In this document: positions 7,791 to 61,550 of the stretch, in pieces
How the letters are laid out: every line of letters starts with the position of its first letter
Numbering within the stretch: position 1 is the stretch's first letter
DNA from: Marinifilum flexuosum
GTDB taxonomy: Bacteria > Bacteroidota > Bacteroidia > Bacteroidales > Marinifilaceae
Reading direction: 5' to 3'
Assembly (NCBI RefSeq): GCF_003610555.1
Contig: NZ_RAPQ01000008.1
Location: forward strand, 1,046,490 to 1,110,489
Length of the DNA: 64,000 bases
Position numbers and translations under genes: made by a program
The notes under the pieces: generated by a model
The model's database searches: none
Told to the model about the DNA's origin: nothing
What the model saw: the letters and a program-made list of their open reading frames with translations, nothing else

Positions 7791-8135
7791 GATCCGAGTT
7801 AATAAAATAGCATCCGAGTAGCAAAATATACCTTCTGAGTTAACAATTACCCCATCTGAGTAGCTTAAAAACCCATCTGAGTAGTCCCAATACCCTTCTG
7901 AGTTATCAATTAACCCGTATGAGTAGTTGAAATACCCATCGGAGTTACCAATATTGGCATCTGAGTAAGCCAAATACCCTTCTGAGTTGAACAAGAAGGG
8001 ATAAATACTAACTCGGATAGGAAAGTTAATAACTCAGATGGCAAAAATACTTACTTGCATGGGTAGAATATCAACTCGCAAGGCAATTTGACTAATTTGT
8101 TTAATGAATTTGCTTACTCAAACAGATGGTGCATA
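7791..8135. repeat. Array A: 21-bp-phased degenerate repeats that reverse orientation
   Basis: The trinucleotide GAG of the unit core (TCTGAGT) recurs at 7796, 7816, 7837, 7858, 7879, 7900, 7921, 7942, 7963 and 7984, i.e. every 21 bases after the first step. From 8012 the core is inverted (ACTCGG, ACTCAG) with CTC/CTT at 8012, 8033, 8054, 8075 and 8117, again on a 21-base grid. Unit sequences differ strongly; only the core and spacing persist. An open frame on the minus strand across it (7716-7994) is a by-product of the 7-codon period. The 290 bases from 8136 to 8427 hold a small AATATCTTA/TAAGATATT hairpin and nothing else recognised. Confidence 0.85.
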
Positions 8136-8427
8136 GGCAAAGAGCTGAAAATGCTGCAATTTTATAGAAGGAAGCAAGGCAAAAAGAGAACAGTTGAATA
8201 CTGTTGCCAAAATATCTTAGCATAAGATATTTATTTTTAGGATTATTGTTTAAATTCACATGCCTAAGACATCTAAAATTATCAGTTTATACAAGCAGAT
8301 TGGACATGTAAGCTGATAAGAGTAGGGAATAAAAGAAAAATAAGCATAGCTTTTTTAAGCTTATAAATAAGTTAGGCTTAATTGGGTAACTATGCACAAA
8401 GAATATGACTCTAATTAATTTATATAA

Positions 8428-9186
8428 ATGAACACATTACTAAAAATCTCTTTGATTTTACTCCTTGTATTAAGTCTATTAGGGATTGCAGATTATTACA
8501 TCCCAGACTGCTCATTATTTCAAGATTACATTAGAGGTACTTTTACAGAAACTATTGGAATTCTGGTGACTATAGTTTTAATTGAAATTATTTTGAGTAA
8601 TAGTAGGAAGAAAGAACATGAAATTCTCATTAACAAAAGTGCTATCAGAGCTATCGAAATGATTAATATTTCATTGGAAAATTATAATAGAGCAGCCTTT
8701 GATATTGCAACACCTTCGGACAAAAAACACCTTATGACGAATAAAACACTAGACGATAATTTCTTATTTGCAGATTTATGTGAGTTATTTGAAAGCAGTA
8801 ATTCATTGATATTTGAAGGTATATTTGTAAGTAAGATTGAAGTATATTTTGACAAACTCGACCACTTAGCTCAAACTATTAAAACAGCTTTATATCAAGT
8901 TGATTTATCTTATCACAATGAACTATCTAAATTACTAATTGATTTCATTAAGTATATTGAAGAATATTATCCTAAAAATGGAATATTAAAAGACAAAACA
9001 CAATCTTTGGGTGATGGCAAAATGAAAGATGAAATAAAAAAGATTATTTCTGAACACACTGGAAATGTGGAATACGAAGGAACTGTAAAGGACAAATATG
9101 TAAGACTATATGAAATTATTAGATATATAAATAATTTTAAAAAGGGATATAAAAAACTTGAACTTGATATTAGAATGAAAAACTAA
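8428..9186 (+). CDS. Orphan two-TM protein of unknown function
   Basis: The 252-residue protein has two N-terminal hydrophobic segments (about residues 5-22 and 38-57) followed by a long charged, helical cytoplasmic domain. I recognise no family. Its base and codon use are more AT-rich than neighbouring housekeeping genes. It is isolated between array A and a hairpin-like element (9187-9356), so it may be a recently acquired accessory gene. A membrane-anchored sensor or defence-type role is possible but unsupported. Confidence 0.65.
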   Translation: MNTLLKISLILLLVLSLLGIADYYIPDCSLFQDYIRGTFTETIGILVTIVLIEIILSNSRKKEHEILINKSAIRAIEMINISLENYNRAAFDIATPSDKKHLMTNKTLDDNFLFADLCELFESSNSLIFEGIFVSKIEVYFDKLDHLAQTIKTALYQVDLSYHNELSKLLIDFIKYIEEYYPKNGILKDKTQSLGDGKMKDEIKKIISEHTGNVEYEGTVKDKYVRLYEIIRYINNFKKGYKKLELDIRMKN

Positions 9187-9356
9187 GCCTAGCACGCTAG
9201 TATAAAGCATTTGGCGTTCGTGAACAAGGAAGATAGGTTGGGTAATCAAACACCGCCAAATCTTTGATTTGGCTCCAAGAGTTTTGGTGGTATGGTTTCG
9301 TTAAATCGCCAATCGCTTCATCTAGCCAACCGTTGAATTTTCTTAAAGAATTGCAT
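9187..9356. other. Element with broken inverted repeats after the orphan gene
   Basis: The segment begins GCCTAGCACGCTAGTATAAA right after the stop codon and contains ATTTGGCG (about 9209) and CGCCAAAT (about 9254), plus GATTTGGCT. This gene-plus-hairpin layout recalls attC-like or other cassette-end elements of Bacteroidota, but no distal mate of GCCTAGCACGC is present before the next terminator, so it would be truncated. No integrase is in the window. Confidence 0.3.
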
Positions 9357-9391
9357 CAAAAAAAGCGCCTCCCACAACAGGAGGCGCTTCG
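9357..9391 (-). terminator. Terminator of the beta-oxidation operon
   Basis: The stem AAGCGCCTCC / GGAGGCGCTT (9363-9389) has a run of A residues on its left, which reads as a U-tract on the minus strand, 20 bases after the stop of the acyl-CoA dehydrogenase gene. Confidence 0.9.
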
Positions 9392-9411
9392 CATACTAAG
9401 CCAATCTTTAA

Positions 9412-11196
9412 CTAAAAACAATATTTATTCTCCTCGATTAATTTCTTGGCAATCATTCGGCGTTCTTCTTTGCTGTTTAGTCCGCTATGCTTGGTAAAGC
9501 GTTTCAAGCCTAAAAGCATCATGCGCAATTCGTCGCCCGATGAAATGCTATTGGTAGCATCTTTGGCATTTTTGTGAATGCGATCGGCAGCATCGTAAAA
9601 GAAGACCTTACATATGGCAATTTGTTCCTTACAGGCTTCTTCTCCTTTAGTTTCTACCAACTTTTTAACGCGTAGCAATAACGATTCAGCCTGATAACAA
9701 TCCGTAATGATATCTGAGATGTTCATTAGGATTTCCTGCTCCTTACTTAGCTTTTGCATGAACTTCTGAGCAGCAGCACCAGCTATCAGTAAAGCACACT
9801 TTTTAAATCCCTCTACCAATTTGCTTTCAGCAGCCAATAGGCTGGTATCTTCTTCTCCAAAATCAGGAATCGACATTAACTCTTTGGCAACTGCTTGTGA
9901 AGCGGCCAACAATGGCAGTTCGTTCTTGAAGGCCTTGCGCAAAAGGTAATCTACCACCAACATGCGGTTGATTTCGTTGGTTCCCTCAAAAATACGATTG
10001 ATACGAGCATCGCGATAAGCACGTTCCATTGGAGCTTCGGCAGAGTATCCCATACCACCATAAATCTGTACGCCCTCGTCCACCACATAATCCAAAACTT
10101 CGGATGCAGCAACTTTCAGAATGGCAGCTTCTGCAGCAAATTCCTTCTGTGCCTGTACAGATGCTTGCTCCTTACTCATTCCTTCTTCAATTAAATGATG
10201 CTTGGTGTTCTGAATATCGTTACTACAGCGGTAAATTGCTGACTCTATAGCATAGGTTCGAGTAGCCTGCTCGGCGATTTTGTACTGAATCGCTCCAAAA
10301 TTAGCAATCTCGGTACCAAACTGAATACGTTCATTGGCATAGTTAATGGAATTGGAGATAACCTTTTTTCCAGCTCCTAAAACGGCAGCAGCCAATTTAA
10401 TCCTTCCATTGTTTAGGATATTCAAGGCAATCTTAAAGCCTTCACCTCTTTCTCCCAAAAGGTTTTCAACAGGAATTTCACAATCTTCAAAGAACATCAT
10501 GCAGGTTGAAGACCCTTTGATACCCATTTTCTTTTCTTCCTGTCCTAAACTAATTCCTGGAAAGCTTTTTTCTATAATGAAAGCACTTAAGTTCTTATCA
10601 TCATCAATCTTGGCAAAAACGGTGTAAATGTCAGCAAACCCACCATTGGTAATCCACATTTTTTGTCCGTTCAAAATGTATTTCGAACCATCATCAGAAA
10701 GTTTTACCTTACTCTTTCCCGAATTGGCATCCGATCCAGATCCTGGCTCCGTCAAACAATAAGCTCCTTTGTATTCGCCACTGGCAAGCATAGGCAAATA
10801 CTTTTCTTTTTGCTCTTGCGTTCCATAGTAGAGGATAGGAAGCGTTCCAATTCCCACATGAGCCGCATAGGCTACCGCAAACGAGCTGTAAGTGCCCATT
10901 ACCTCGGTGCTCAGCATGGATGTATTCATATCCTGGCCAAATCCGCCATACTCTTCGGGAATTGCAATGCCAAGTAGACCCAATTCACCTGCTTTGTCTA
11001 GTAAATCGGTCATTAAACCTTCTTCCTGTTCATCAATTCTGTCCTGCATTGGAAATATTTCTTTCTCCTGGAAATCTCTGCAGGTATCCATGATCATTTT
11101 TTGTTCTTCCGATATCTCTTCCGGAATAAAAATATCTTGTGGCATCGTTTCTTTCACCAGAAACTGTCCGCCTTTTACTGTTTTAATCTTTTCCAT
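9412..11196 (-). CDS. Acyl-CoA dehydrogenase (FadE/VLCAD-like, long form)
   Basis: The FAD flavoenzyme catalyses the first, alpha-beta desaturating step of beta-oxidation. In the 594-residue protein the ACAD N-terminal, middle and C-terminal domains are clear: YCLTEPGSGSDANSGKSK (FAD/substrate block), WITNGG, and YGGMGYSAEAPMERAYRDAR followed by RIFEGTNEINRM, where the Glu of EGT is the expected catalytic base. An extra C-terminal helical domain of about 170 residues is as in long ACADs (VLCAD/ACAD9, Bacillus FadE). It is the last gene of the fad operon, after thiolase with a 105-base low-complexity spacer. Confidence 0.92.
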   Translation of the reverse strand: MEKIKTVKGGQFLVKETMPQDIFIPEEISEEQKMIMDTCRDFQEKEIFPMQDRIDEQEEGLMTDLLDKAGELGLLGIAIPEEYGGFGQDMNTSMLSTEVMGTYSSFAVAYAAHVGIGTLPILYYGTQEQKEKYLPMLASGEYKGAYCLTEPGSGSDANSGKSKVKLSDDGSKYILNGQKMWITNGGFADIYTVFAKIDDDKNLSAFIIEKSFPGISLGQEEKKMGIKGSSTCMMFFEDCEIPVENLLGERGEGFKIALNILNNGRIKLAAAVLGAGKKVISNSINYANERIQFGTEIANFGAIQYKIAEQATRTYAIESAIYRCSNDIQNTKHHLIEEGMSKEQASVQAQKEFAAEAAILKVAASEVLDYVVDEGVQIYGGMGYSAEAPMERAYRDARINRIFEGTNEINRMLVVDYLLRKAFKNELPLLAASQAVAKELMSIPDFGEEDTSLLAAESKLVEGFKKCALLIAGAAAQKFMQKLSKEQEILMNISDIITDCYQAESLLLRVKKLVETKGEEACKEQIAICKVFFYDAADRIHKNAKDATNSISSGDELRMMLLGLKRFTKHSGLNSKEERRMIAKKLIEENKYCF

Positions 11197-11301
11197 GTTT
11201 GTTAATGTTTAATGATTAGAGATCAATGATAATTGTCTAGTGTTTAATGATTATTGTCTAATGATTGGCATTTAGAATCACTTATAATTAAACCTTAATT
11301 A
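11197..11301. repeat. Low-complexity spacer inside the fad operon
   Basis: Short degenerate copies of AATGATTA / TGTCTAATGATT fill the gap between the thiolase and dehydrogenase genes. A similar but different spacer (TTATCAGTTATCAGTAAACA) fills 12487-12533. No ORF or hairpin of note. Confidence 0.5.
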
Positions 11302-12486
11302 TTAACCATTATTCATTAGTTCAAAAATACCAGCAGCACCTTGCCCCGATCCTACGCACATGGTAACCATGCCATATTTTTGATTTCTTTTCTTCATTTC
11401 GTGCAAGAGTTGAACCGAAAGTTTTGTTCCTGTACATCCCAATGGGTGTCCCAAAGCAATGGCTCCACCATTTACATTGGTGATATCAGGATTCATGTCC
11501 AGTTCTCTCATTACTGATAAGGCCTGAACTGCGAAAGCTTCGTTCAATTCGATTTGCTCTATTTGGTTCATGTTTATTCCTGATCGTTTTAAAACTTTAG
11601 GAATGGCTTCAACAGGTCCAATTCCCATGTGTTTTGGCTCAACACCAGCTACAGCATAAGAAACAAAGCGAGCAATTGGCTGCACGTTTAATTGTTTCAA
11701 CATCTTTTCCGATACCACCAAAACAAATGCTGCTCCATCGGATGTTTGTGAAGAATTTCCAGCCGTAACAGTACCACGTTGATCGAACACTGGTCTTAAT
11801 TTCGATAATCCTTCTATGCTGGTATCAGCTCTTGGCCCTTCATCAGTGGCAACAATGTGTTCTTTGGTTTCAGCTTTCTCTTGGCTGTTCACAAAAGTCT
11901 CCGATACTGTAATAGGAACAATTTCATCTACAAAACGGTTCGCAGCTAATGCCTCTAGAGCCTTCCTGTGTGAGTGAAATGCAAATTCATCCTGATCTTC
12001 TCTTGATATTTTGTACTTTTTCTGCAAGGCTTCTGCTGTAATTCCCATGTTCCAGTAGTAATCGGGATTCGATTTGGCTATTCCCAGGTTGGGAACCAAT
12101 CGCCAGCCACCCATTGGCATGAGCGACATCATCTCCACACCACCTGCAAGAATACAATCTGCCAAGCCAGCTTCAATTTTCGATGCGGCAATGGCTATGG
12201 TTTCCAGGCCAGATGAGCAGTAACGATTCACGGTCATTCCCGGAACCTGTATATTATCCAAACCCATTAAGGAGATCATTCTTCCGATATTCAATCCTTG
12301 TTCAGCTTCGGGCGTTGCATTTCCTACAATCACATCGTCAACTAGTAAAGGATCAAGACTTGGGGTTTTCTCCATAATGTGTTTTACCACCCTTGCGGCC
12401 ATATCATCAGGCCTGATGAGGCGAAGCTTTCCCTTTTTTGCTTTGCCTATGGCGGTTCTATATGCGGCTACTATATATGCGTTCAT
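11302..12486 (-). CDS. fadA: Acetyl-CoA C-acyltransferase (thiolase)
   Basis: This is the last step of beta-oxidation, thiolytic cleavage of 3-ketoacyl-CoA. From ATG 12486 (a TTG three codons upstream is less likely) the protein is 394 residues, the normal thiolase length. The acylated cysteine is in NRYCSSGLE (Cys90), the catalytic His in [16 protein letters not shown], and the second Cys in CVGSGQG. It lies between fadN and fadE in the same order as the Bacillus fadN-fadA-fadE operon, which supports a degradative rather than biosynthetic thiolase. Confidence 0.93.
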
Positions 12487-12533
12487 ATTTGTCAATTATC
12501 AGTTATCAGTAAACAGTTATCAATCACCAATTA

Positions 12534-14933
12534 TTAGTTTCGAAGGATTTTTCCTTTTTGTAGTAGGCTTTGCATGCGTTCCATTGTTTTCTTTTGCTGG
12601 CAAAGTCGTACGAAAGCAATTCTTTCCAGATCGAGTAAATATTTTTCCGATACTTGGGCAGGTTCGCTCAATTCGCCACCACTTAGTACTTTCCCAAGCT
12701 CTACGGACAAGTGCTTGTCGTATTCCGAGATGAAATTTCCTACTTCCATTCCATCTGCACCCGAATAAACCAAAGCCAATCCTTCACTTCCCAGTACAGT
12801 AATGTCTTTGGTTGGAAGAGGAGGAGTGTAGCCTTTTTCAAGCATCAATAAGGCAGCCTTTTTAGCATAGCTTAATTGGTGTTTTTTGCTAATGATTACT
12901 TCATCCACATCCTTTCGGAGATATCCCAGGTCGAATGCTTCGTAAGCCGACATTGATACCTTTGCTTGACCGATACTTAAGAATTTATCTCGGAAACGGT
13001 TGGTTCGGATATCATCCTGAGCAATCTCTTTGGACAATCGGTAAGCAAATTCTTTGGTTCCTCCACCAGCCGGAATTACGCCAACACCCAATTCAACCAA
13101 TCCCATGTAGGTCTCGGCATGAGCAATTACTTTGTCGGTATGCATACACAGTTCACATCCTCCTCCCAGAGTCATGCCATGTGGTGCGGCAATTACCGGA
13201 ACCGAAGCATACTTTAACTTCAGCATGGTATTTTGGAAAGTGCGAACAACCATGTCTAATTCTTCAAACTCCTGCTCAATGGCCAGCATAAATACCAATC
13301 CAATATTGGCTCCAGCCGAGAAGTTTTCCCCTTCGTTCGAGATGACCAAAGCTTGATAATCGCTTTCGGCCAACTCAATGGCTTTATTAATACCTTGTAT
13401 GATTTCACTGCCAATGGTATTCATCTTGGTGTGGAACTCAAGGTTGATAATACCATCTCCAAGGTCGATGATACTTGCACCTTCGTTACTCCAAATGGTT
13501 TTAGAAGAGCGAATATTATTTAGAAGAACCAGATTTTCGGTTCCAGGAATGGTTTGGTGAGCATTCGAATTTACATCATAGTACTGTTTTAAGCCGTCTT
13601 TCAATTGGTAGAAACTTAGGTCTTCCTGAACCATATTGTACACCCAATTGGCGGCCTTATATCCCATAGCTTCCATCATGCCCAAAGTCTTTTTTACACC
13701 TAAGCTTTCCCAAATCTCGAATGGACCCATTTCCCAGGCAAAACCCGAACAGATGGCTTCATCAATTTTGTAGAGATCATCAGTAATCTCAGGCATTCGG
13801 TTCGAAACGTAGGCAAATAAACCGAAGAATAGCTTCTGATAGAATTGATTTACCTTGCTGTTTCCTTTTAGGAGAACTTTAAAACGATCATTAAGATGAG
13901 GTACAGCCTTGGCTGCTTCAAATTCACCAAACTTTACCCTTTGTTTTTCCTGATACTCGAAACTATCCAGATTCAAGCTTAAAATCTCACTTTTGCCTTC
14001 CGTCTTTATCTTTTTATAAAATCCCTGTCCGGTTTTTGATCCCAACCATTGGTTGCCCATCATGTGTTGAATAAACTCCGGAATCTGGAAAACATCTTTG
14101 GCTTCATCATCTTGCAGTGCTTTCTGAAGGTTTTGTGCAACAAATACCAAAGTATCCAAACCAACAACATCGCAAGTACGGAAGGTAGCAGATTTGGGTC
14201 TTCCAATGATTGGTCCTGTAAGTTTATCGATTTCTTCAACCGAAAATCCAAATTCATCAATCAGGTGAAAAACCGACATCATCGAATAAACACCAACTCG
14301 GTTGGCAATAAATGCAGGAGTATCCTTACAACTTACTACCGATTTGCCTAAAAACCTTTCTCCAAAATCAGTCAAAAAATCCAATACTTCCTGATTTGTT
14401 TTAGGGGAAGGAATAATTTCTAACAATTTCAAATACCTCGGAGGATTGAAGAAATGAGTGCCGCAAAAATGAGCTACAAAATCTTCCGACCTTCCTTGAA
14501 TCAACATCTGAATAGGAATGCCTGATGTATTGGTCGTAATCAGGGAATCAGGTTTCCGATGCTCTTCAATTTTGGTATAGAGTTCTTGTTTGATTTTTAG
14601 ATTTTCGATAATGACTTCTATTATCCAGTCGCATTCAGCGATTTTATGAAGGTCATCTTCGAAATTACCCGTTGTAATTCTGCTAGCATAAGCTTTTAAA
14701 TACAATGGAGCAGGTTTTAGTTTTGTTGCTTTCAGAAAAAGATCGTTTACAATTCTGTTTCTTACTATGGGATGATCTGAAGACAGACCAGCCTTTTGTT
14801 CTTTTTCGTTAAGTTCCTTTGCAGGCATATCCAATAATAAAACCTCGATGCCTATATTGGCAAAATGACATGCAATTTGAGCGCCCATGACTCCTGCACC
14901 CAAAACTGCAACTTTTCTAATTTTTCGAGTCAT
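12534..14933 (-). CDS. fadN: FadN-type 3-hydroxyacyl-CoA dehydrogenase / enoyl-CoA hydratase
   Basis: The 799-residue bifunctional enzyme handles hydration and NAD-dependent oxidation in beta-oxidation. The N-terminal Rossmann fold has VAVLGAGVMGAQ (residues 8-19) and the 3HCDH catalytic region has HFCGTHFFNPPRYLKLLEII; a second 3HCDH domain follows to about residue 480. The C-terminal crotonase-type domain (about 490-700) has FSAGANI and GMTLGGGCEL oxyanion-hole motifs. The domain order (dehydrogenase first) is that of FadN, not of E. coli FadB. Gene spacing to fadA is 47 bases. Confidence 0.92.
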   Translation of the reverse strand: MTRKIRKVAVLGAGVMGAQIACHFANIGIEVLLLDMPAKELNEKEQKAGLSSDHPIVRNRIVNDLFLKATKLKPAPLYLKAYASRITTGNFEDDLHKIAECDWIIEVIIENLKIKQELYTKIEEHRKPDSLITTNTSGIPIQMLIQGRSEDFVAHFCGTHFFNPPRYLKLLEIIPSPKTNQEVLDFLTDFGERFLGKSVVSCKDTPAFIANRVGVYSMMSVFHLIDEFGFSVEEIDKLTGPIIGRPKSATFRTCDVVGLDTLVFVAQNLQKALQDDEAKDVFQIPEFIQHMMGNQWLGSKTGQGFYKKIKTEGKSEILSLNLDSFEYQEKQRVKFGEFEAAKAVPHLNDRFKVLLKGNSKVNQFYQKLFFGLFAYVSNRMPEITDDLYKIDEAICSGFAWEMGPFEIWESLGVKKTLGMMEAMGYKAANWVYNMVQEDLSFYQLKDGLKQYYDVNSNAHQTIPGTENLVLLNNIRSSKTIWSNEGASIIDLGDGIINLEFHTKMNTIGSEIIQGINKAIELAESDYQALVISNEGENFSAGANIGLVFMLAIEQEFEELDMVVRTFQNTMLKLKYASVPVIAAPHGMTLGGGCELCMHTDKVIAHAETYMGLVELGVGVIPAGGGTKEFAYRLSKEIAQDDIRTNRFRDKFLSIGQAKVSMSAYEAFDLGYLRKDVDEVIISKKHQLSYAKKAALLMLEKGYTPPLPTKDITVLGSEGLALVYSGADGMEVGNFISEYDKHLSVELGKVLSGGELSEPAQVSEKYLLDLERIAFVRLCQQKKTMERMQSLLQKGKILRN

Positions 14934-14967
14934 ATTTTTATTTGTTATAGTGTGTGTGAATACTTAT

Positions 14968-16752: not shown

Positions 16753-16781
16753 AATTTAAAGTTTAAGTATGTAAGGCATTA

Positions 16782-16853
16782 CAGCATTTCAAAATGAGTT
16801 CGAAGCATTTTGATGCGCAGGAACTTAATCTCTAATAATTAGAGGTGAGAGAT
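16782..16853. promoter_or_regulatory. Upstream region of the fad operon: two array-C-like units and a palindrome
   Basis: CAGCATTTCAAAATGAGTTCG and the next unit, AAGCATTTTGATGCGCAGG..., occupy 16782-16823 with 21-base spacing and share the 14-mer CAGCATTTCAAAAT with the array at 61 kb. Immediately beyond, CTCTAATAATTAGAG (16830-16844) is a perfect 7-1-7 palindrome nested in AATCTCT/AGAGATT. The location just upstream of the first fad gene makes it a plausible operator, but no known FadR-type consensus was matched. Confidence 0.45.
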
Positions 16854-17003
16854 TTAGTGTTGATTTAAGTTTTGTGTAAGAAGTTGTATTGGGAATTGGT
16901 TTCGGAGATTTTCCGAAATCTTTTTACACTTACATAAAATTTACAAAAAGGAATCTGAAAATAAAAGAATAATTGGTAAGAATTCTTTTTTATTTGGTAA
17001 GCG

Positions 17004-17034
17004 AAAAAAAAAGGAAGCTTTTGGGCTTCCTTTT
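17004..17034. terminator. Terminator after fmt
   Basis: The stem AAGGAAGC / GCTTCCTT (17011-17032) with a six-base loop has an A-run on the left, giving a U-tract for the leftward fmt transcript. Confidence 0.85.
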
Positions 17035-17039
17035 AAATT

Positions 17040-17996: not shown

Positions 17997-17997
17997 A

Positions 17998-18165: not shown

Positions 18166-18166
18166 A

Positions 18167-20087: not shown

Positions 20088-20149
20088 TCTAAAATATTTT
20101 AATTGAAGCGAGATCTAAATTTTATTATATGGATATCGCATTGCTACCT

Positions 20150-21042: not shown

Positions 21043-21046
21043 CTAC

Positions 21047-23993: not shown

Positions 23994-24010
23994 TAAATGA
24001 AAGTTTGGAA

Positions 24011-24098
24011 CAGTCAAACAGTCAAACAGTCGAACAGTCGAACAGTCGAACAGTCAAACAGTCAAACAGTCGAATAGTCGAATAGTCAAACGGTCGAA
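24011..24098. repeat. 8-bp tandem repeat, 11 units
   Basis: Eleven head-to-tail copies of (C/T)(A/G)GTC(A/G)AA, e.g. CAGTCAAA and CAGTCGAA, without indels. The unit period is 8 bases; no ORF. It is a simple satellite between the aspA terminator and trmO. Confidence 0.95.
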
Positions 24099-24168
24099 CT
24101 TGAGCAGAGAAAAAATAACAATGCAAATTAGAATTGTTACATTTATCTGATTACAAAAAAGAAATGTC

Positions 24169-24980: not shown

Positions 24981-25250
24981 CACTTCAGACGGTCGGAAGT
25001 ACATTACCACAAATGGTAGAATACTTCAAACGCTCTGAACTGTATTGCCACAAATGGCAGAGCATCTCAGACGGTCTGGACTGTATTGTCCTAACATGGC
25101 AGAGCACCTCAAACGGTCTGAAGTACATTGCCACGAATGGCAGCCTACCTCAATTCATCTGAACTGCATTTCCCGACGTGGCAATGCGCCTCAAACGGTC
25201 TGAATCATACTACCACAAATGGAAGTCAACTTCAGACGCTCTGAACAAGA
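24981..25250. repeat. Array B: 41-bp period made of two alternating palindromic half units
   Basis: Seven copies of TTCA(G/A)AC(G)GTCTGAA-like palindrome start at 24985, 25026, 25067, 25109, 25150, 25191 and 25232 (spacing 41-42). Midway between them lies a second palindrome of the form TGCCACAAATGGCA, 20-21 bases on. Units diverge strongly but phase holds. It ends against the hemH stop codon at 25256. Confidence 0.85.
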
Positions 25251-40682: not shown

Positions 40683-41102
40683 GCATCTTTATTGGGAGTA
40701 ACAGAGTAAATTGCTATCCAGTACCCCAAATTTGGGGTACTGGATAGCAATTTTCCCCTTTCAACCCTCAAACTTTCTATCCCGAAGCTCGATCAAGGGC
40801 AAAAGCATAGAAAATTTGGTATATGCTTATAGCAATTATCCTCTAGCTTAGGGCAAGTTATCTCTCTCCGAGCCCATTATTTCTATAGTAAGGGGCAAAC
40901 TTTCTCTTCAAGAGACCTGAATTGCTCTCAAGAATATCGAATGTCTCAAAAAAAAGATAGCAATTTGCTATCCGTACCCCAAAAATTTGGGTCACCATTA
41001 GGAAAGCCGAGGGTACAACCCCCAATGTTGACCCTCCCTAGGGGAAATTTCTTATCCACGATAGCAATTTAGAGGATAGCAAGCCTTTGTCCGATGATCA
41101 GG
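40683..41102. repeat. Array D: about 20 units on an exact 21-bp grid
   Basis: With units counted from 40746 in steps of 21 (40767, 40788 ... 41061, 41082), nearly every unit has an A/T core such as CAATTT, CAAACT, AAATTT or GAAATTT at the same offset (bases 3-10), flanked by G/C-rich GGG/CCC or GATAG/CTATC. Many units are self-palindromic around AATT. The unit sequence varies freely; the phase does not. It includes the perfect 46-bp palindrome at 40708. No ORF. Confidence 0.85.
40708..40753. repeat. Perfect 46-bp palindrome
   Basis: Left arm AAATTGCTATCCAGTACCCC followed by AAA, right arm its exact complement, with centre between 40730 and 40731 and zero loop. Related shorter palindromes recur at 40956-40994 (GATAGCAATTTGCTATC, then CCCCAAAAATTTGGG). 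Confidence 0.95.
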
Positions 41103-41260: not shown

Positions 41261-41352
41261 AATACCCGAGTCTAAGGTATTCCAATACCTCACCCTGCCT
41301 TAGCCTAATACCCCAAGCCAGGGTATTATAATACCTTAATCTAAGGTAGACT
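41261..41352. repeat. Short 23-bp-phased palindromic array
   Basis: AATACC begins at 41261, 41284, 41307 and 41330, exactly 23 apart; each unit is roughly AATACC...CTAAGGTATT, i.e. palindromic. It ends 65 bases before the MFS 3 start and could be read as a cluster of operator-like sites. Confidence 0.8.
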
Positions 41353-50108: not shown

Positions 50109-50110
50109 TC

Positions 50111-52297: not shown

Positions 52298-52324
52298 TAT
52301 GTTATATTCTATTAGTATACAAGC

Positions 52325-52364
52325 AAAAAAGACACAAGAGCATTGTATTTTTCTTGTGCCTTAT
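52325..52364. terminator. Hairpin in the divergent region upstream of the flavoenzyme gene
   Basis: GACACAAGA / TCTTGTGCC (one mismatch) with an 12-base loop and an A-run on the left. It would act as a terminator on the minus strand, but it lies upstream of the gene, so it may instead be a leader/attenuator structure. The rest of 52298-52639 is AT-rich without features. Confidence 0.4.
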
Positions 52365-52639
52365 TAGATGAATTGTTCGATTGCAAATTTAGAAAAATTC
52401 TTGATAAGAATAAGATGTTGAAGTATGATTTTGAGCATATCAGTATTGGTAATGAAGGTTTTTATACATTTATTCTTTAGAATAATTATAGATATTGAAT
52501 TCTGATTAAATATTGGGTTCGAATTGTGCAAAGGTTCTTGTTTCTTACAATCAATATTACTTTTTTTATGCTCGAAAACATTTAGGGGGATTAACCATTA
52601 TCAATCAAGTAGTTTTGCTTGGTTTTATAAATTTATTGA

Positions 52640-54415: not shown

Positions 54416-54561
54416 TGTTTACTTCATCAAATTGTCTTATTTATATCAGTTATAAAAGCAAACGTTTTCCTAATTGTAGCTGCTATTCAGAGCTTTAGTT
54501 TGATAATGAAAATCTTTTGAAAAAATCTGGTAAAAAGAGTTTATCCTTTCCAATTATCTAT

Positions 54562-54569
54562 TACATTTG
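54562..54569 (+). promoter_or_regulatory. -7 box upstream of ClC paralogue 2
   Basis: TACATTTG, TAnnTTTG class, followed by GCACTCG. It lies 185 bases before the ATG, leaving a long leader. Confidence 0.5.
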
Positions 54570-54599
54570 CACTCGATTTTTGAGGGATGTTTAATGATA

Positions 54600-54725
54600 G
54601 TAGTTCATAAGCATACCAAAATCAGCAAAGTACATGAACTCCGACTAACCGCCTGGTAGTTTTATGTAACTTACCCTAAGGCCGCCTGACTTCTGCAGCC
54701 ATCCGACCTTTTTTAATTTATGTAT
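54600..54725 (+). promoter_or_regulatory. Long leader of ClC paralogue 2, candidate structured RNA
   Basis: The leader contains CATGAACTCCGACTAACCGCC and, further on, TAAGGCCGCCTGACTTCTGC. The order ATGAA..CC, AACCGCC, GGC, CTGAnTTCTGC recalls the crcB-motif (fluoride) riboswitch that often precedes ClC-F genes, but the 5' GGnGATG half is poorly matched and no covariation can be tested here. Confidence 0.25.
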
Positions 54726-54753
54726 GTGGAATAGATAATCTTGATTCGGAGCA

Positions 54754-56529
54754 ATGAAGAATAAGAGTTTGCTTTCTCGATTTTTAATTTGGAGAGTAAA
54801 AAACATTAAGGAACGACAGTTTGTTTTAATTTTGAGTTTTTTGGTTGGAGTAGTGAGTGGTTTGGCTGCACTTGTACTCAAAAATACAATCCATTTTACC
54901 CATCATTTTCTAACTCATCGTTTACATGTAGAGTCTGCCAACTTGTTGTATTTGGCATATCCTGCTGTGGGTATATTACTAACTGTACTGTTCGTAAAGT
55001 TCTTTGTGAAGGATAACATTGGTCATGGGGTATCAAGAATATTATATGCCATTTCGAAAAAGAACTCACTGATAAAATCACATAATAACTATTCTTCGGT
55101 ACTGGCAAGTACTTTAACCATTGGTTTTGGTGGATCGGTGGGAGCAGAGGCTCCAGTAGTATTAACTGGTGCATCAATTGGTTCCAATCTTGGAAGAATG
55201 TTCCATATGAACCAGAAAATCATTACGCTAATGGTTGGTTGTGGAGCAGCAGGAGCAATCGGAGGAATCTTTAAAGCACCAATGGCCGGAATGGTATTTA
55301 CCTTGGAAGTTTTGATGTTGGATTTGACCATGGCATCCTTAATTCCACTTTTGATTTCATCAATTACAGGAGCTAGTATTGCTTATTTCTTTATGGGAAA
55401 AGGTGTTTTGCTTTCCTATGATGTAACAGAGCCATTCGTAATTGGCAACTTCCCATATTACATTCTTTTGGGGGTGTTTGCAGGATTGGTTTCGCTTTAT
55501 TTTACTCGATTTTCAATGTATTTGGAAGGCCAGTTTGATCGAATTACCAATTGCTATCGAAAAATGATGGTTGGAGGAATCTTATTGGGTATTCTGATCT
55601 TTTTATTTCCTCCCTTATATGGTGAGGGTTATACTACAATCCAGGCTTTATTAGATGGAAATCACACTCATTTGGTAAACAACAGTATCTTCTATTTTTT
55701 AAAAGATAATTACTGGTTGTTGTTGGGATATGTTGTGTTGATTTTAGGATTTAAGGTAATTGCATCAACGGTTACTACAGGTAGTGGTGGTGTTGGAGGT
55801 ATATTTGCACCTTCGTTATTTCTTGGCGGAGTTTCAGGTTTTTTTGTAGCCCGATTTATTAACGGTTTTAATTTTGTGAAACTGTCCGAAAGTAATTTTA
55901 CTTTAATTGGGATGGCAGGAATGATGGCTGGTGTTATGCATGCTCCATTAACTGCAATATTCCTGATTGTTGAAATTACCGGAGGATACGAGCTGTTCAT
56001 CCCAATCATGGTTACGGCAACAATTGCTTACTTGACCATTATGTATTTTGAACCACATTCAATCTACACCAAACGGTTGGCCAAACGTGGGGAGCTGATT
56101 ACTCACAATAAGGATAAAGCTGTTCTTACCTTAATGAAATTGGGCAAGGTAATCGAGACAGATTTGAAAAAAGTAAGTCCTGATGCCACATTAGGGGAGT
56201 TGGTGAAAATTATTTCGCACTCACAAAGAAATATTTTCCCTGTGGTTGATGAGGATGATAAGCTATTGGGAATTGTTCTTTTGGATGATATTCGACATAT
56301 CATGTTTAATCCAGAGATGTACGAGGAAACGTATGTAAGAAATTTAATGATAATGCCACCTGCCATACTGGATGCCAATGCTCCAATGGAAAAAGTGATG
56401 CGAAGATTTGAAGAAACAGGAGCTTGGAATCTTCCGGTAACGCAGGACGAAAAATATTTGGGATTTGTATCCAAAGCTAAAATCTTCAATGTATACCGAA
56501 GGGTTTTGGTGCACTTTTCAGATGAATAA
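54754..56529 (+). CDS. ClC-type anion channel/transporter with CBS pair, paralogue 2
   Basis: 591 residues, same length and layout as paralogue 1. The selectivity motifs are altered: HGVSRILY in place of HGIPNVLY, and GFGGSVGAEAP (E132 kept, but G-E-G-P has become A-E-A-P). GSGGVGGIFAPSLFLG and the CBS pair (TLMKLGKVIETDLKKVSPDA...) are conserved. The altered filter suggests a different anion preference or gating. A long leader (54570-54753) precedes it. Confidence 0.92.
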   Translation: MKNKSLLSRFLIWRVKNIKERQFVLILSFLVGVVSGLAALVLKNTIHFTHHFLTHRLHVESANLLYLAYPAVGILLTVLFVKFFVKDNIGHGVSRILYAISKKNSLIKSHNNYSSVLASTLTIGFGGSVGAEAPVVLTGASIGSNLGRMFHMNQKIITLMVGCGAAGAIGGIFKAPMAGMVFTLEVLMLDLTMASLIPLLISSITGASIAYFFMGKGVLLSYDVTEPFVIGNFPYYILLGVFAGLVSLYFTRFSMYLEGQFDRITNCYRKMMVGGILLGILIFLFPPLYGEGYTTIQALLDGNHTHLVNNSIFYFLKDNYWLLLGYVVLILGFKVIASTVTTGSGGVGGIFAPSLFLGGVSGFFVARFINGFNFVKLSESNFTLIGMAGMMAGVMHAPLTAIFLIVEITGGYELFIPIMVTATIAYLTIMYFEPHSIYTKRLAKRGELITHNKDKAVLTLMKLGKVIETDLKKVSPDATLGELVKIISHSQRNIFPVVDEDDKLLGIVLLDDIRHIMFNPEMYEETYVRNLMIMPPAILDANAPMEKVMRRFEETGAWNLPVTQDEKYLGFVSKAKIFNVYRRVLVHFSDE

Positions 56530-56561
56530 TAGTTTTATTTTAGATTAGTTTAGGTTAGATG

Positions 56562-56593
56562 AAAGCTTGCTCGGTTATGAGCAAGCTTTTTTC
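56562..56593 (+). terminator. Terminator of ClC paralogue 2
   Basis: AAAGCTTGCTC / GAGCAAGCTTT with a six-base loop and T-run. Confidence 0.9.
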
Positions 56594-56639
56594 TTACTAT
56601 TTGGAGCTTGGAATTTGATTGTTGGACTTTGATATTACT

Positions 56640-56647
56640 TACCTTTG
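56640..56647 (+). promoter_or_regulatory. -7 box of the formimidoylglutamase-like gene
   Basis: TACCTTTG, TAnnTTTG class, 19 bases before ATG 56667; TTTG 23 bases upstream could be the -33 element. Its location supports the internal start over 56619. Confidence 0.65.
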
Positions 56648-56666
56648 CAGCAATAAACTATTAATC

Positions 56667-57677
56667 ATGAACAACAAACATTACAAAACCATCGATCCGG
56701 ATATTTGGAAGGGAAGGATAGATGATGAGGAGGATTACGATGCTTTTCGTTGGCATCAGATTGTAAAACCCATAGATTTACTCGATTCGCAGGATAGAAC
56801 TTTAAATGGCTTTGGTTTATTGGGGTTTTGTTGCGACAAAGGAGTGCAAAGAAACCTTGGAAGAAAAGGAACCTCAAAGGCTCCCAACAGTATCCGAAAA
56901 GAAATGGCAAACCTGCCTTGCTCATTTCCACAAGGTACTAATATTTACGATTGTGGTAATATTGTAAGCAATGGAGTAGAATTGGAAGAGGTACAAAGTA
57001 TATTATCCGAAGCTGTTTACAAAATACTAAAAATGGGATTGTTTCCATTGATTTTAGGTGGAGGACACGAAATAGCCTATGGACATTATTTGGGAATTGA
57101 AAGATATTTGGCAGAGCAAGAAAATCAGGAGCTGGGAATATTTAATTTGGATGCTCATTTCGATATGCGTCCGTATCAAAAGGGTGCAAGTTCGGGAACC
57201 ATGTTTGCGCAGATTGCTGACCGCTGTAAAGAGAATGGAAAAGATTTTCGTTATATGGTTGCTGGTATCCAACAATATGGCAATACGGTGAGTTTGTTTA
57301 AAAAAGCTGATGATTTGGGCGTAAAATACCTAATGGCAAAAGATATCTCCAATGATAGCATGTTTGCCGTAGGACAGGACATTGTTCGATTTACCAAGAA
57401 GCAAAGAAAGATTTACATGACTCTTTGCTCTGATGTAATATCATCGGCATATGCACCAGGTGTGAGTGCACCACAGCCATTTGGTTTGCATCCCGAAATT
57501 ATTGTGAAGCTGATTAAAACCGTAATTCAATCTGGTAAGGTAGTTAGTTTTGATATTGCTGAAGTTTCACCGCGTTTCGATGAGGATAACCGTACCTCAA
57601 AATTGGCTGCAATTATCATTTTCGCTGTCATCAACTCGGTGGTTGAGTTTGGTTCAGCATCGGATTGTATTTGTTAG
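56667..57677 (+). CDS. Ureohydrolase, formimidoylglutamase (HutG)-like
   Basis: 336 residues from ATG 56667. Arginase/agmatinase-fold manganese enzymes show GGGHE, DAHxD, DxD and a late Glu; here ILGGGHEIAYGH, NLDAHFDMRP and SFDIAEVSPRFDEDNRTSKL are present, with APGVSAPQPFGL as in formimidoylglutamases of histidine degradation. Odd: the usual SxDxDxxDP block reads TLCSDVISS, so the first metal-ligand Asp appears to be Cys. No hut genes are adjacent, so a histidine-utilisation role is inferred from the family only. Confidence 0.8.
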   Translation: MNNKHYKTIDPDIWKGRIDDEEDYDAFRWHQIVKPIDLLDSQDRTLNGFGLLGFCCDKGVQRNLGRKGTSKAPNSIRKEMANLPCSFPQGTNIYDCGNIVSNGVELEEVQSILSEAVYKILKMGLFPLILGGGHEIAYGHYLGIERYLAEQENQELGIFNLDAHFDMRPYQKGASSGTMFAQIADRCKENGKDFRYMVAGIQQYGNTVSLFKKADDLGVKYLMAKDISNDSMFAVGQDIVRFTKKQRKIYMTLCSDVISSAYAPGVSAPQPFGLHPEIIVKLIKTVIQSGKVVSFDIAEVSPRFDEDNRTSKLAAIIIFAVINSVVEFGSASDCIC

Positions 57678-57702
57678 AAAAGAGAATAAGTATTAATGAA
57701 TA

Positions 57703-57740
57703 AACCCACTTGCAAATTTTATTGCAAGTGGGTTGTATGT
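57703..57740 (+). terminator. Terminator
   Basis: AACCCACTTGCAA / TTGCAAGTGGGTT, a perfect 13-bp stem; it can serve the gene at 56667. Confidence 0.85.
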
Positions 57741-57830
57741 TATTTCAAGATAAACTGTTTCAGAATCCGATAGAAATACTCAAACTAGGAGTTAACTTAG
57801 GTTCGGACTACAGTCAATAAAAAAAAAGAA

Positions 57831-58724
57831 TTAATCATTGTCAAATCTTGATTTAAATTTGGTAAAATTCCAATCTACAATAGTTCCTTGATTTAAAATA
57901 TATACACCGTTTTTATCAATTTTTTCAAAAAAACCAGATATAGCAATAGTATCTCCTTTTATAAAAGAGTTAGTGTTTTGTTTTCTTAATTTACAAAAAG
58001 CCAATTTTTCCCAACTTTTTAATACAGTAATTGGTTCATGATCTATTATTGTGTCTTTATAAAAAGTGCCGACTATACTTAATGATTGTTTCTGCGTAAT
58101 TTTTTTACGTTTATTTTCATAAAATACCAGAGAGTGTGGCATTTGTTTTTTCATGTTTTGAATGTGACAATTGTAGTACCAAACTAAATAATCTTTTTTG
58201 CCCCATAAATAATTAAAGATATTGAACTTTTGATATTCACGTTTATTGTATTGATGTTCATTATAGAATTTAAATTCATTAAAGAAAGAATCTTCATAGA
58301 TCGTATCTCCTTTTTGAAAATTTGAATCTAGTTTGCCATCAACACCAGCACTAATTAATATGAAAGATTCTTTTTTATTAGAGATTCTATTATATAAAGG
58401 CACATATAAAAGTGAAGAATTCTCTTGGGTAACAAACGGATCATTAAATAAATTATAAATAAAAAAATCTTGTTTGTTTTTATCCTTATAGTGCATTTTT
58501 GCTATAGACTTTAAGCTATCGGGTAAGTTGAAATTAAAATAAGGAAAAGAACTTAGTATGTTGCTTACATTTAATAAGTTTCCTCCGATTCTTGATCGGT
58601 CAACATTTTCAACTTTATTTTTATAGTCCTTTTGTAAATGACTATAAAAATATATCAATAAAGATATTGAAAGTATTAAAACTATAAATATTGATATTTT
58701 TTTCATATTAATGTATTTAGTCAT
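57831..58724 (-). CDS. Membrane-anchored protein of unknown function with pseudopilin-like motif
   Basis: The 297-residue protein has one N-terminal TM anchor (about residues 8-28, ISIFIVLILSISLLIYF), then a soluble exported domain. SFILISAGVDGKLDSNFQKG resembles the C-terminal ILxSxGPDG block of type II secretion pseudopilins (calcium site), but there is no prepilin cleavage motif. The start (ATGACTAA) overlaps the stop of the upstream ORF by eight bases, so the two are coupled. Family otherwise not recognised; very AT-rich, lysine-rich. Confidence 0.65.
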   Translation of the reverse strand: MTKYINMKKISIFIVLILSISLLIYFYSHLQKDYKNKVENVDRSRIGGNLLNVSNILSSFPYFNFNLPDSLKSIAKMHYKDKNKQDFFIYNLFNDPFVTQENSSLLYVPLYNRISNKKESFILISAGVDGKLDSNFQKGDTIYEDSFFNEFKFYNEHQYNKREYQKFNIFNYLWGKKDYLVWYYNCHIQNMKKQMPHSLVFYENKRKKITQKQSLSIVGTFYKDTIIDHEPITVLKSWEKLAFCKLRKQNTNSFIKGDTIAISGFFEKIDKNGVYILNQGTIVDWNFTKFKSRFDND

Positions 58725-59880
58725 TACACTCTTTTAAAGCATTTTTAAATAAATTCAGATTAGTTTCATCTAAATTGCTATTTTCACCAAGCTTAATTGA
58801 TAATAAAACTGCGCATGAACCACCAGTTAAAGAATTTTTCACGAAGTATTCGTAACCTGCCCAATACCCTGTTTTTGAATATCCGTTTGTATTAGCATTG
58901 AATTTATCAGGTAAATGGACGTATTCTCCTTCAGTGTAGATATTATCATACCCCATTACACTCATACTTACTGTCATATCTATAGTAATACCATTTATGA
59001 TAACTCTTCCAGCAAATTCTGCAGCATAGTTGTCTGATCCCATACTTCCAAAATCAAATATGTTGTTTAAGTCTATATGACCTCCGTTTTGCCATACTTT
59101 ATTTTCATACCTCATGGCATCCATTAAGTGTGCTATTCTATCGCCATTTGATAGGTTGAACCAAGATTTCTTATCAATGGAGTTTAATTCGTCGCAATCT
59201 TTTAGTTTTTTAGGTTCGGCATTTTTAGGGCTCCATTTAGTTGGATCTTCCGGTGGATTTCCACCGCCACCTTCTTGGTTGCCCCAAGGTAATTTTTCTC
59301 TTTCACCTGCAACCTCTCTACAAATCCATTCGAAGTTATATTCTCTGGAGCTATGACTGTACTTGTGGCTTATTAATTCTCCTCCCACATAAGTATCAAC
59401 CCAGTGATCAATTTCAGTTTCTACATACTCCATTCTACATTCTTCCTCAAAAGAACCAGCTTTTGTTCCTGTTTGATTCATAGAACCCAACAAATAACCA
59501 AGATCAGCTAAAATATCACAATCTATATAGTTGAACAATTTCTTGTCAAACAGCAAAAATAAACTCATAATGTAAGTTCTGTCAGGTACGTTGTCATAAC
59601 CTACTTCTACAAGAGGATTCAAATAAGCATCGAAATTGTACCTGTCAGTGTAATTAAAAAGTAACTTACCTGTAGCATTGTCATGCAAAATAATAATTAC
59701 TCCTTCGGTATAATTCGAATTTTCTCTTGCACAAGGAATAAAAGCCAATTTGTCAACATCGTAAGTATTGTAAATTGTGTAATCCCAAACTGGTAAACCT
59801 ACTTTGTCTTTAACTTGTTGTGCAAAATCCAAATTCTCCTGATAATAATTCATGATTTGATCTCTAAATTCAATATCCAA
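58717..59880 (-). CDS. Unknown protein, probably the body of a frameshifted lipoprotein
   Basis: The open frame of 387 residues begins only at a TTG (59880) and has no signal sequence. The frame stays open upstream past this point, alongside the end of the 64-residue lipoprotein ORF in another frame. Joining them by a -1 shift would give a roughly 450-residue lipoprotein. Features: a GGGGNPPEDP linker, cysteines in CRMEYVE and ICREVAG, and a C-terminal domain (HIDLNNIFDFGSMGSDNYAA). No known family. Confidence 0.6.
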   Translation of the reverse strand: MDIEFRDQIMNYYQENLDFAQQVKDKVGLPVWDYTIYNTYDVDKLAFIPCARENSNYTEGVIIILHDNATGKLLFNYTDRYNFDAYLNPLVEVGYDNVPDRTYIMSLFLLFDKKLFNYIDCDILADLGYLLGSMNQTGTKAGSFEEECRMEYVETEIDHWVDTYVGGELISHKYSHSSREYNFEWICREVAGEREKLPWGNQEGGGGNPPEDPTKWSPKNAEPKKLKDCDELNSIDKKSWFNLSNGDRIAHLMDAMRYENKVWQNGGHIDLNNIFDFGSMGSDNYAAEFAGRVIINGITIDMTVSMSVMGYDNIYTEGEYVHLPDKFNANTNGYSKTGYWAGYEYFVKNSLTGGSCAVLLSIKLGENSNLDETNLNLFKNALKECND

Positions 59881-59885
59881 ATCAC

Positions 59886-60080
59886 TTACCGTATGGTGTA
59901 AGAGGATTTTAGTGTGTTGGCATTGCCAATATCCTCGTTGTTACTTGAAATAAAGTTTGGATTAAAAAAGTTATCTTTCACATAACTTTCAACCATTGGA
60001 TTTTCATCGGTATGATAATCATCCTGACATGCCGTAGCAAAGGAAATAAAACATAGTAGTAAAATAAATGTTCTCTTCAT
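59886..60080 (-). CDS. Lipoprotein leader ORF, likely the N-terminus of the 58717 gene
   Basis: 64 residues starting MKRTFILLLCFISFATAC (lipobox ATAC, Cys18), then a short acidic stretch and an early stop. By itself it is too short for a typical lipoprotein. Its stop lies five bases before the TTG of the next ORF, and the sequence CTAAAATCC within its last codons has a four-A run where a one-base slip joins the frames. Either a pseudogene, a sequencing error, or programmed frameshifting. Confidence 0.6.
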   Translation of the reverse strand: MKRTFILLLCFISFATACQDDYHTDENPMVESYVKDNFFNPNFISSNNEDIGNANTLKSSYTIR

Positions 60081-60320
60081 TTTTTGTGATTTAATTAATA
60101 TTACATCTCTTAATTCTCGTTATGGTTAAAAGGTAACCTATAAACTTATATGTTGAAAAACATTATTAACCAAAAAATCGTTCCATTCCCCATTATACTT
60201 AAGTTTTGTTTATGATTTAATTTTAAAATAAACGTAATGTTTATTTATAATTTGTTATCCTGCGAATAAAATATTAAATTCTAAGCGTTTTATGTTTTTC
60301 TAATTTAAAATTCTAAACCA

Positions 60321-61067
60321 ATGACTAATCAAGAAAACTACGAATCAATTAAGGAAAACCTACTTGCTAAATCTGAAAGCGAAGTTAGTAAACCAGGAAT
60401 GCCTGTTGATACTTATATTGAAGAGGCAGAAGACAAATATTATTATGCTACACAAGATAAGGATAAGCTTGTTGTAGCAGGTTTAAAGGAAGAATACATC
60501 ACCAGTCTACCTGTTCGAATTGGGGCTTTGCGTCATGCTCAATCGCAATGGACCAAGGAATCGGAGAACAGAACCGAAGCATCAAAGCAATGGAAATTAT
60601 TATCGGAAGATGCCTTGGCTTTGCACAGGGTGCTGCTGCATGATTTTAGATTTGCCTATAGAAATGATGCAGGTAAGAAGAAAGTGGTGGACAAAATTGC
60701 TGAAGGTAGTGGTTATGGAGATCTGGTTCAGGATTTCAGTGATTTGGATGCCTTTGGGAAAGCAAATCCTGAAGAATTACTTGCCATTGGTTTTGATAAT
60801 ACCAAATTGGTAATGGCATTGGAGTTTGCAAATAGTTTGGGGCCATTACTTAGTGCCATTAATGGCGAAAGAGACGAGAATGATAAACCAAGTAAAGAAA
60901 TGAGAGATCGTGCCTACGTGTATCTTAAAGAAGCAATTGATCAGATATGTGAATACGGTAAATATGTATTCTGGGAGGACGAAGAACGATTGGAAAAATA
61001 CTCATCGGCATATTTCCGTAAATTAAGAGAAGAAAGACAAGAGAAAGAAGAAAGTATTACAGAATAA
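60321..61067 (+). CDS. Cytosolic helical protein of unknown function
   Basis: The 248-residue protein has no signal or TM, and is acidic and largely alpha-helical with a charged coiled C-terminus (RKLREERQEKEES). Residues 60-80 (TSLPVRIGALRHAQSQWTKE) and 160-190 contain the only hydrophobic patches. I do not recognise the family. It sits between the unknown lipoprotein locus (divergent) and array C, and has its own terminator. Confidence 0.7.
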   Translation: MTNQENYESIKENLLAKSESEVSKPGMPVDTYIEEAEDKYYYATQDKDKLVVAGLKEEYITSLPVRIGALRHAQSQWTKESENRTEASKQWKLLSEDALALHRVLLHDFRFAYRNDAGKKKVVDKIAEGSGYGDLVQDFSDLDAFGKANPEELLAIGFDNTKLVMALEFANSLGPLLSAINGERDENDKPSKEMRDRAYVYLKEAIDQICEYGKYVFWEDEERLEKYSSAYFRKLREERQEKEESITE

Positions 61068-61103
61068 TTTAATTGGTGTCTTCTTACAAATAGCCTTTTG
61101 TAC

Positions 61104-61139
61104 TCCCGGCTGCATGAAAGTGCAGTCGGGATTTTTTTA
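61104..61139 (+). terminator. Terminator
   Basis: TCCCGGCTGCA / TGCAGTCGGGA with a six-base loop and seven T residues. Confidence 0.9.
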
Positions 61140-61148
61140 GTATACCTT

Positions 61149-61550
61149 CTGAAAGCCCCGCGCAGACTAGGATGAACACACGCAGCGCGGCTTAAAAGTG
61201 TGCAGATTCAGCATATTTTTCCACAGCATTTCAAAATAAAATACAGCAAGAGTAATTTTTACGTAGATAAGCTTAAAAATGAGTAGGTATTTCAAAATTT
61301 TAAGAAGCAGGACCTAAAAATGCGAAGCATTGTATTAAAAATTAGAGGCGGAGCATTTTTTTACGCAGCATGGCTTCAAAATGAGTAGGCCTGACTTCAA
61401 AATGTCAACACTTGGATTAAAAATCCGAAGACTTGAGAATTTTTTCAGCAGTGGAACTTATTTTTGAGAAGCATCTTCTAAAAATGCAAAGGCCGATGTG
61501 ATTTTGGCGCAGCTAGGTTTGCTAATGAGTAGGTTTAATAATAACTACAC
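61149..61550. repeat. Array C: 21-bp-phased degenerate repeats
   Basis: From 61188 on, cutting every 21 bases (61209, 61230, 61251, 61272, 61293, 61314 ... 61524) places an A- or T-run (AAAAATG or TTTTTACG) at the start of almost every unit and GCAG/GTAGG/GAAG near the middle. Units appear in both orientations (e.g. CTTAAAAATGAGTAGG versus TTTTTTTACGCAGCATGG). Sequence identity between units is low; phase is kept for about 17 units. 61551-61837 holds no recognised feature apart from AT-rich leader. Confidence 0.8.

Follow-up and report, generated by a model that had tools for sequence, protein, structure and literature searches.

The 64,000-bp window of the Marinifilum flexuosum genome analysed here (contig NZ_RAPQ01000008.1, positions 1,046,490 to 1,110,489) contains four intergenic arrays of degenerate repeats whose units stand about two helical turns apart, and one of these arrays follows the gene of an uncharacterised protein, here called X, nearly all tested copies of which have such an array on their 3' side. 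These arrays are phased and consist of a conserved core and a variable spacer; they are depleted in insertions and deletions (indels) that break the phase, they are linked to particular genes, and at one locus the protein and the core differ together between genomes. Judged from sequence, the arrays are probably private rows of binding sites, each read by the protein encoded next to it. Throughout, "the window" is the whole stretch (C1:1046490-1110489); C1, C2, C4 and C7 are contig labels, and the genome comprises 5.17 Mb in 16 contigs.

Protein X is a multi-copy protein with nine matches in this genome and is present in 5/5 genomes of the genus. It is rare in the phylum: among 395 genomes drawn, with at most six candidates scored per genome, only this genome and one weak match were found. 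The matches in the five genomes of the genus number 35, of which 30 were subjected to a uniform test of the flanks (array called at a score above 7) and five were omitted (two partial, three without locus). An array is present 3' of X in all nine copies of M. flexuosum and in 20/21 copies of its relatives, i.e., in 29/30, and 5' of X in 0/9 and 1/20, respectively. The sole failure among the 30, L166, has a 3' score of 6.2. Among control genes, from which the partner genes of the sample were not removed, 27/551 have an array 3' and 17/551 have one 5', giving a background of ~3-5%.

The copy of X in the window (248 aa) has no Pfam match at an E value of 0.001; single members of the family have weak ones (best E 0.0003, 16 families over 21 X proteins). 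Its predicted structure is all-helical (AlphaFold2 pLDDT 91.8), and fold searches found no counterpart in PDB (best E 0.13) or among viral models (best E 0.12). Sequence searches against solved structures gave nothing informative, those against PHROGs, NCBIfam and PADLOC gave weak matches only (best E 0.0063; 0.0077 for X against a type I specificity subunit), and phage, plasmid and viral-contig collections contained no match.

Protein and core differ together at one locus shared by four Marinifilum genomes. Here the neighbouring gene is 98-99% identical, X is only 59-68% identical, and each genome has its own core in the array (GGCTACAG, CTAACTGG, GCGATAGG and ATCAGGAG). Across X pairs in general, a word test detected a common core in 6/6 pairs of at least 90% identity, 3/20 of 50-90% and 3/409 below 50%. 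Furthermore, arrays lacking a partner gene (orphans) could be compared with those beside one (masters): 7/26 orphans match a master core, and the shuffled control gave 0 passes. At the level of pairs, 12/962 pass, including one self-comparison and three DUF6261 pairs left uninterpreted. At C1:591083-591657, an array without X beside it contains three successive cores in one phase; two of them match the arrays of the changed-core X locus (in this genome and in Marinifilum D714), and the third resembles by eye the core of genome G003.

Array geometry and side go with the neighbouring protein family: arrays are 3' with ~21 bp for X, 5' with mostly ~41 bp for DUF6261 and 3' with ~23 bp for HU-DUF4469. 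DUF6261 (PF19775) has 12 matches in this genome, 11 of which were tested (L300, with a broken frame, was left out). An array is located 5' of 10/11 of these genes and 3' of none, L310 being without array; nine of the arrays have periods of 40.6-41.9 bp and one of 20.75 bp, and many are visibly palindromic. In genome G034, from another family of the same class, 2/3 DUF6261 genes possess a 5' array of 41-42 bp (L296, L301). Homology of X to DUF6261 was rejected (hhalign probability 3%). HU-DUF4469 proteins combine an HU-like domain (PF14848), annotated as DNA-binding, with DUF4469 (PF14734), as established for one scanned protein; the other paralogues were assigned by 27-30% identity. The best period of the 3' flank is 22.75-23.15 in 4/4 own genes examined, which are not a genome-wide set. 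Five hits in the plasmid collection (four Parabacteroides distasonis genes and one Treponema saccharophilum plasmid gene) all show, on inspection by eye, 3' flanks resembling arrays (scores of 6.2-11.9, best period of 22.75-23.75), with units beginning at or near the stop codon. One general family flanking all arrays was considered and rejected; only two related pairs were found (the MFS genes on either side of array 3, and a pair of DUF6261 genes). Two uncharacterised 228-aa genes, C1:515285-515971 and C1:720658-721344, possibly represent further partner families; neither has a Pfam match at E 0.01, and the former has its array 3', the latter 5'.

The relevant features of the window are the following:

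7785-8085, no strand: array 1, 21-bp units with the core TCTGAGT forward until ~7990 and its reverse complement thereafter (autocorrelation and core finder)
24981-25250, no strand: array 2, ~41-bp units with two dyads, TTCAGACGGTCTGAA and TGCCACAAATGGCA (autocorrelation and sequence)
40683-41102, no strand: array 3, weak 21-bp period and palindromes (autocorrelation and period detector)
41261-41352, no strand: array 3b, four 23-bp units, AATACC...GGTATT (by eye)
60321-61067, plus strand: gene of protein X, 248 aa, all-helical family, preceding array 4 (open reading frame)
61104-61131, plus strand: terminator-like hairpin, 12-pair stem followed by a T run, between gene X and array 4
61149-61545, no strand: array 4, degenerate, period ~20.5 bp on average (autocorrelation and period detector)

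The first-pass annotation of this DNA had described phased arrays at four sites, unrelated to each other in sequence and spaced by 21 or 41-42 bp. Indeed, all four show lag peaks in the autocorrelation, and no sequence common to them was found; the spacing is phased as described, but its period is not fixed at 21 and varies around ~20.4-21.4 bp. Array 1 peaks at lags 21, 42 and 63 (identity 0.52, 0.52 and 0.50; mean 0.27), array 2 at 41 and 82 (0.58 and 0.49; mean 0.25), and array 3 more weakly at 21, 42 and 63 (0.36-0.37; mean 0.25). The peaks of array 4 at 61, 41, 82, 20 and 21 (0.43-0.36; mean 0.27) correspond to an average period of ~20.5, and the period detector scores it 10.8 at 20.50. 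For each array, the genome contains one or two long relatives that have diverged (68-74% identity), plus shorter matches, and in 4/5 of the long alignments both sides have equal length, the remaining one being off by 21 bases. The core of array 1 recurs in the array 3' of the X gene at C2:656638, and at C1:98408, and the relative of array 2 (C1:516058) lies directly 3' of a 228-aa gene. Array 3 includes a perfect 46-bp palindrome (40708-40753), and its main part has a relative at C7:15622, beside which no X, DUF6261 or HU-type gene was recognised; array 3b matches an array on C4 that lies 3' of an HU-DUF4469 gene. For array 4, the core finder yielded no regularly spaced word, and the word test against the array beside the D714 X orthologue reaches only z 3.8; the relative of array 4 at C1:771592 carries the core GCGCAGCG, which matches the core of that clearer D714 array, CCGCAGCG.

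Similar arrays occur elsewhere in the genome. In the stacked intergenic autocorrelation of C1:1-800000, lag 21 is the highest (z 10.9), followed by lag 42 (z 9.7); lags 63, 84, 105 and 126 are raised as well (z 3.7-5.2), and so is lag 6 (z 5.7). A period detector allowing any period of 10-60 bp was applied to the long intergenic regions of these 800 kb. It scored above 8 in 18/222 regions, with a period of 20.4-21.3 bp or its double in 15 and of 22.85, 56.2 and 59.75 in the others; the shuffling control that the annotation had proposed gave 0/581 dinucleotide-shuffled tiles above 6. In 200 kb of Marinifilum D714, six hits exceeded 7 (five at 20.6-20.95 bp or double, one at 22.75), 200 kb of Sunxiuqinia indica contained one hit at 20.95 and one at 29.5, and 50 kb of E. 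coli contained none. Unlike the phased arrays, the intergenic region C1:360829-361738 repeats exactly at lag 120 (150 bases at an identity of 1.00).

Within the units, a core of ~8 bp is conserved, and the identity of the spacer is near chance. In ten X arrays, the mean identity between units is 0.86 for the core (a value inflated by choosing units by their core match) and 0.38 for the spacer, slightly over the 0.29 expected by chance. The same division is observed between species, with substitutions at 35/421 positions in cores vs 171/882 in spacers; cores are less changed than spacers in 6/6 orthologous comparisons, one array being counted twice. The annotation's formula of constant phase with free sequence therefore holds for the phase only, since the units carry a core that is conserved within the ten X arrays and between species. 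Likewise, units that are palindromic or flip their orientation, as it had stated, are found in many arrays, but not in all. X arrays are direct repeats with best periods of 19.9-21.8 bp; several of them switch to a half of opposite orientation, and several keep a single orientation.

The phase is maintained while the sequence diverges. Non-array intergenic DNA (16 regions compared with two relatives) shows 52 indels per 935 substitutions, vs 1-3 phase-breaking events per ~247 substitutions in a hand tally of seven orthologous array comparisons, so phase-breaking indels are depleted in arrays (Fisher p 0.0001 to 0.003), in line with the near-absence of indels claimed by the annotation. Both conditions that the annotation had named as refuting, comparable periodicity in shuffles and frequent indels in related strains, were checked, and its observation withstood them. 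End gaps due to unequal cutting were removed by hand, and gaps of 1 bp and 22 bp in array 1 (net 21) were taken as zero or two events. The tally left out array 1 vs M. fragile, array 2 vs isolate McD1.5, array 4 and the X locus whose cores differ between genomes. Array 1 of M. fragile shows three gaps (20, 1 and 2) and has lost its array character in the right half. Insertions or deletions of whole units, exactly 21 or 41 bp, were observed for L158/L155, for array 1 vs D714 (net) and for array 2 vs McD1.5 (one gap of 41).

Whole-unit events of this kind would also be expected if the arrays had arisen by neutral tandem duplication and had then decayed, with recombination in register keeping the phase, and the slight excess of spacer identity over chance could be a remnant of such an origin. 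However, neutral duplication would leave three things unexplained: the unequal conservation of core and spacer both within and between species, the unit length of ~20-23 bp across arrays unrelated in sequence, and the linkage to particular gene families. We regard it as very improbable.

The proposal that adjacent proteins read the arrays accommodates these observations, as the held two-turn spacing, the conserved cores, the indifferent spacers and a protein that differs where the core differs all point to rows of sites for the neighbouring protein. Each array would offer a series of sites, on double-stranded DNA, to the protein whose gene adjoins the founding (master) array. A spacing of about two turns would place the bound subunits on one face of the DNA, where they could contact each other; among the causes suggested by the annotation for the held spacing, such cooperative binding would fit best. 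Specificity would reside in the core, with the spacer merely setting the distance. Arrays without a partner would be extra sites for the same protein, and by having two or three arrays a protein could tag loci that lie far apart, or bridge them. One single architectural protein for all arrays is unlikely, because geometry and side depend on the neighbouring protein family.

The gene context bears on the possible function. Eight of 16 arrays (the 18 detector hits minus 49k, 61k and 361k, plus 754k) lie between convergent genes, compared to 12/106 other long intergenic regions (p 0.0008), and a divergent gene pair flanks only one of the 16. As arrays in this sample favour convergent gene ends, promoter control is unlikely to be their general role, which is likely to be architectural or insulating. 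The arrays 5' of DUF6261 genes are an exception and may serve autoregulation.

A bias to convergent gene ends would also fit selfish repeats of the REP/RAYT kind, copied by the adjacent protein or by a recruited factor, with phase and core reflecting the needs of the copying enzyme. Dispersed relatives within the genome are compatible with this, and so is the turnover at the site adjacent to ferrochelatase, where related species have an array, none, or an unrelated replacement: array 2 is present there in M. fragile and McD1.5, about two units are found in D737, an unrelated array of ~22.5 bp occupies the site in D714, M. breve and N1E240, and M. caeruleilacunae has no array. The ferrochelatase encoded in the window shares 93-97% identity with its counterparts in six Marinifilum records, and 86% with the one in a seventh. 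The 16 Pfam families weakly matched by the 21 X proteins include no transposase, though, each window array has just one or two long relatives at 68-74%, several direct-repeat X arrays lack hairpins, and the same habit would be needed in three or more unrelated protein families. Selfish copying thus appears rather unlikely.

In three X loci (L163, L168, L158), the array sits by eye between the X stop codon and a terminator-like hairpin, as would be expected if arrays were co-transcribed with the gene into guide-like or antitoxin-like RNAs (cf. TIGR, CRISPR and type III toxin-antitoxin systems). In the latter, the antitoxin repeats are located 5' of the toxin gene, as the arrays of DUF6261 are. 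Furthermore, 8/11 palindromic arrays have a stable fold on each strand (z at or below -2.8), a level also reached by array 1 and a two-half X array. Nevertheless, 4/6 X-type forward arrays tested, including array 4, fold no better than shuffles on either strand, so RNA structure was rejected as a feature common to all arrays. A terminator-like hairpin stands ahead of array 4 and, by eye, ahead of the array at several other X loci; the terminator scanner found the former and none before arrays 1 and 3, where hairpins with longer loops are visible by eye only. Some arrays flip their orientation midway, and a near-helical, at times half-integer period is not expected for RNA. Known RNA families were rejected, only two tRNAs being found at gathering score, and so was TIGR-Tas: its Nop domain (PF01798), found in 4/14 control genomes, was not found in this genome. 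An element acting at the RNA level is accordingly highly unlikely.

Several observations weigh against site rows read by adjacent proteins. X is acidic in 19/24 sequences, neither X nor DUF6261 has a recognised DNA-binding fold, and the stable fold of the palindromic arrays would equally suit an RNA or single-strand role. Over all 435 pairs, X identity and core similarity have a slightly negative rank correlation (rho -0.13), so their relation is a threshold and not a trend; the effect is confined to close X pairs, some of which are orthologues that would share an array regardless, and the pair L003/L182 (88% identity) fails the word test, although its cores look alike. No accepted master match was obtained for 19/26 orphan arrays, the master set being incomplete; the unmatched own_658k and D714_154k themselves adjoin HU-DUF4469 and DUF6261 genes. 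In the uniform test only 1/4 own HU-DUF4469 arrays passes at score 7 (2/4 on closer look), genome G252 has a DUF6261 gene without an array, and the period detector had no hit in Labilibaculum filiforme or Fulvivirga marina (200 kb each).

It is conceivable, though we hold it only tentatively, that these pairs form an unrecognised class of gene-array systems, which would comprise three or more unrelated protein families in Bacteroidota and extend to Spirochaetota. Each paralogue would have a private, helically phased code, protein and code would change together among closely related species, and through same-code arrays at other sites the protein would find, and perhaps bridge, particular chromosomal loci. 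If so, three poorly characterised protein families would gain a function at once. The pairs of protein and code would be orthogonal DNA-recognition pairs, with a natural recoding directly readable at a single locus; it would become testable how a protein and about ten binding sites shift their specificity jointly, and whether bacteria organise their chromosome by private arrays.

Apart from the phased arrays, the window contains at 24008-24099 an 8-bp unit, GAACAGTC, in 11 copies. The intergenic region measures 313 bp here vs 235 and 236 bp in two relatives (a difference of ~80 bp), and this is probably an ordinary recent repeat.

In open-licence papers, no description of such gene-array pairs was found, and they can be compared with several known systems. 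In parS clusters, iterons and nucleation sites of nucleoid proteins, binding sites of a protein that associates with itself are likewise grouped, in many cases close to the gene of that protein; here, in contrast, one genome contains many site sequences, each tied to a different paralogue, and X has no recognised Pfam domain. The operators of LytTR regulators (AgrA, ComE) consist of ~9-bp direct repeats with ~12-bp spacers, 21 bp apart, usually two at a promoter. X arrays share this geometry with up to ~20 repeats. LytTR operators were nevertheless rejected as an explanation, as an array above 7 is present in the examined flanks of only 2/15 LytTR genes. These two LytTR genes have a strong 20.75-20.95-bp array nearby, C1:918883-919155 (L280) and C2:725680-725937 (L284). 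Type III toxin-antitoxin systems consist of a ToxN-like nuclease preceded by RNA repeats. DUF6261 genes have their arrays 5', and the protein has no match in a fold search of PDB (E 0.001), nor have the two proteins scanned any in PADLOC. CRISPR repeats are near-identical, 24-48 bp long and separated by regular spacers, whereas the units here have 20-23 bp with a core of ~8 bp (cas genes were not searched).

The nearest precedent is REP sequences with their RAYT genes. As outlined in the papers on REPINs and REPtrons, these are short palindromic intergenic repeats that have dispersed relatives and also flank their own partner gene (PMC3116915; PMC3733652). The arrays described here are also short, intergenic, often palindromic, linked to a partner and accompanied by dispersed relatives. 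They differ in having ~5-20 helically phased, strongly diverged units and several unrelated partner families, and in lacking the many near-identical dispersed copies; the HUH tyrosine transposase of RAYT is not among the weak Pfam matches of the 21 X proteins or the matches of two DUF6261 proteins. For HU-DUF4469, the member from Treponema denticola, TDE_2259, is discussed as a non-specific HU, and the sections available from that paper do not mention an adjacent array (PMC12724145). Private arrays beside such genes would suggest that these proteins have specific sites, in contrast to the non-specific HU discussed there.

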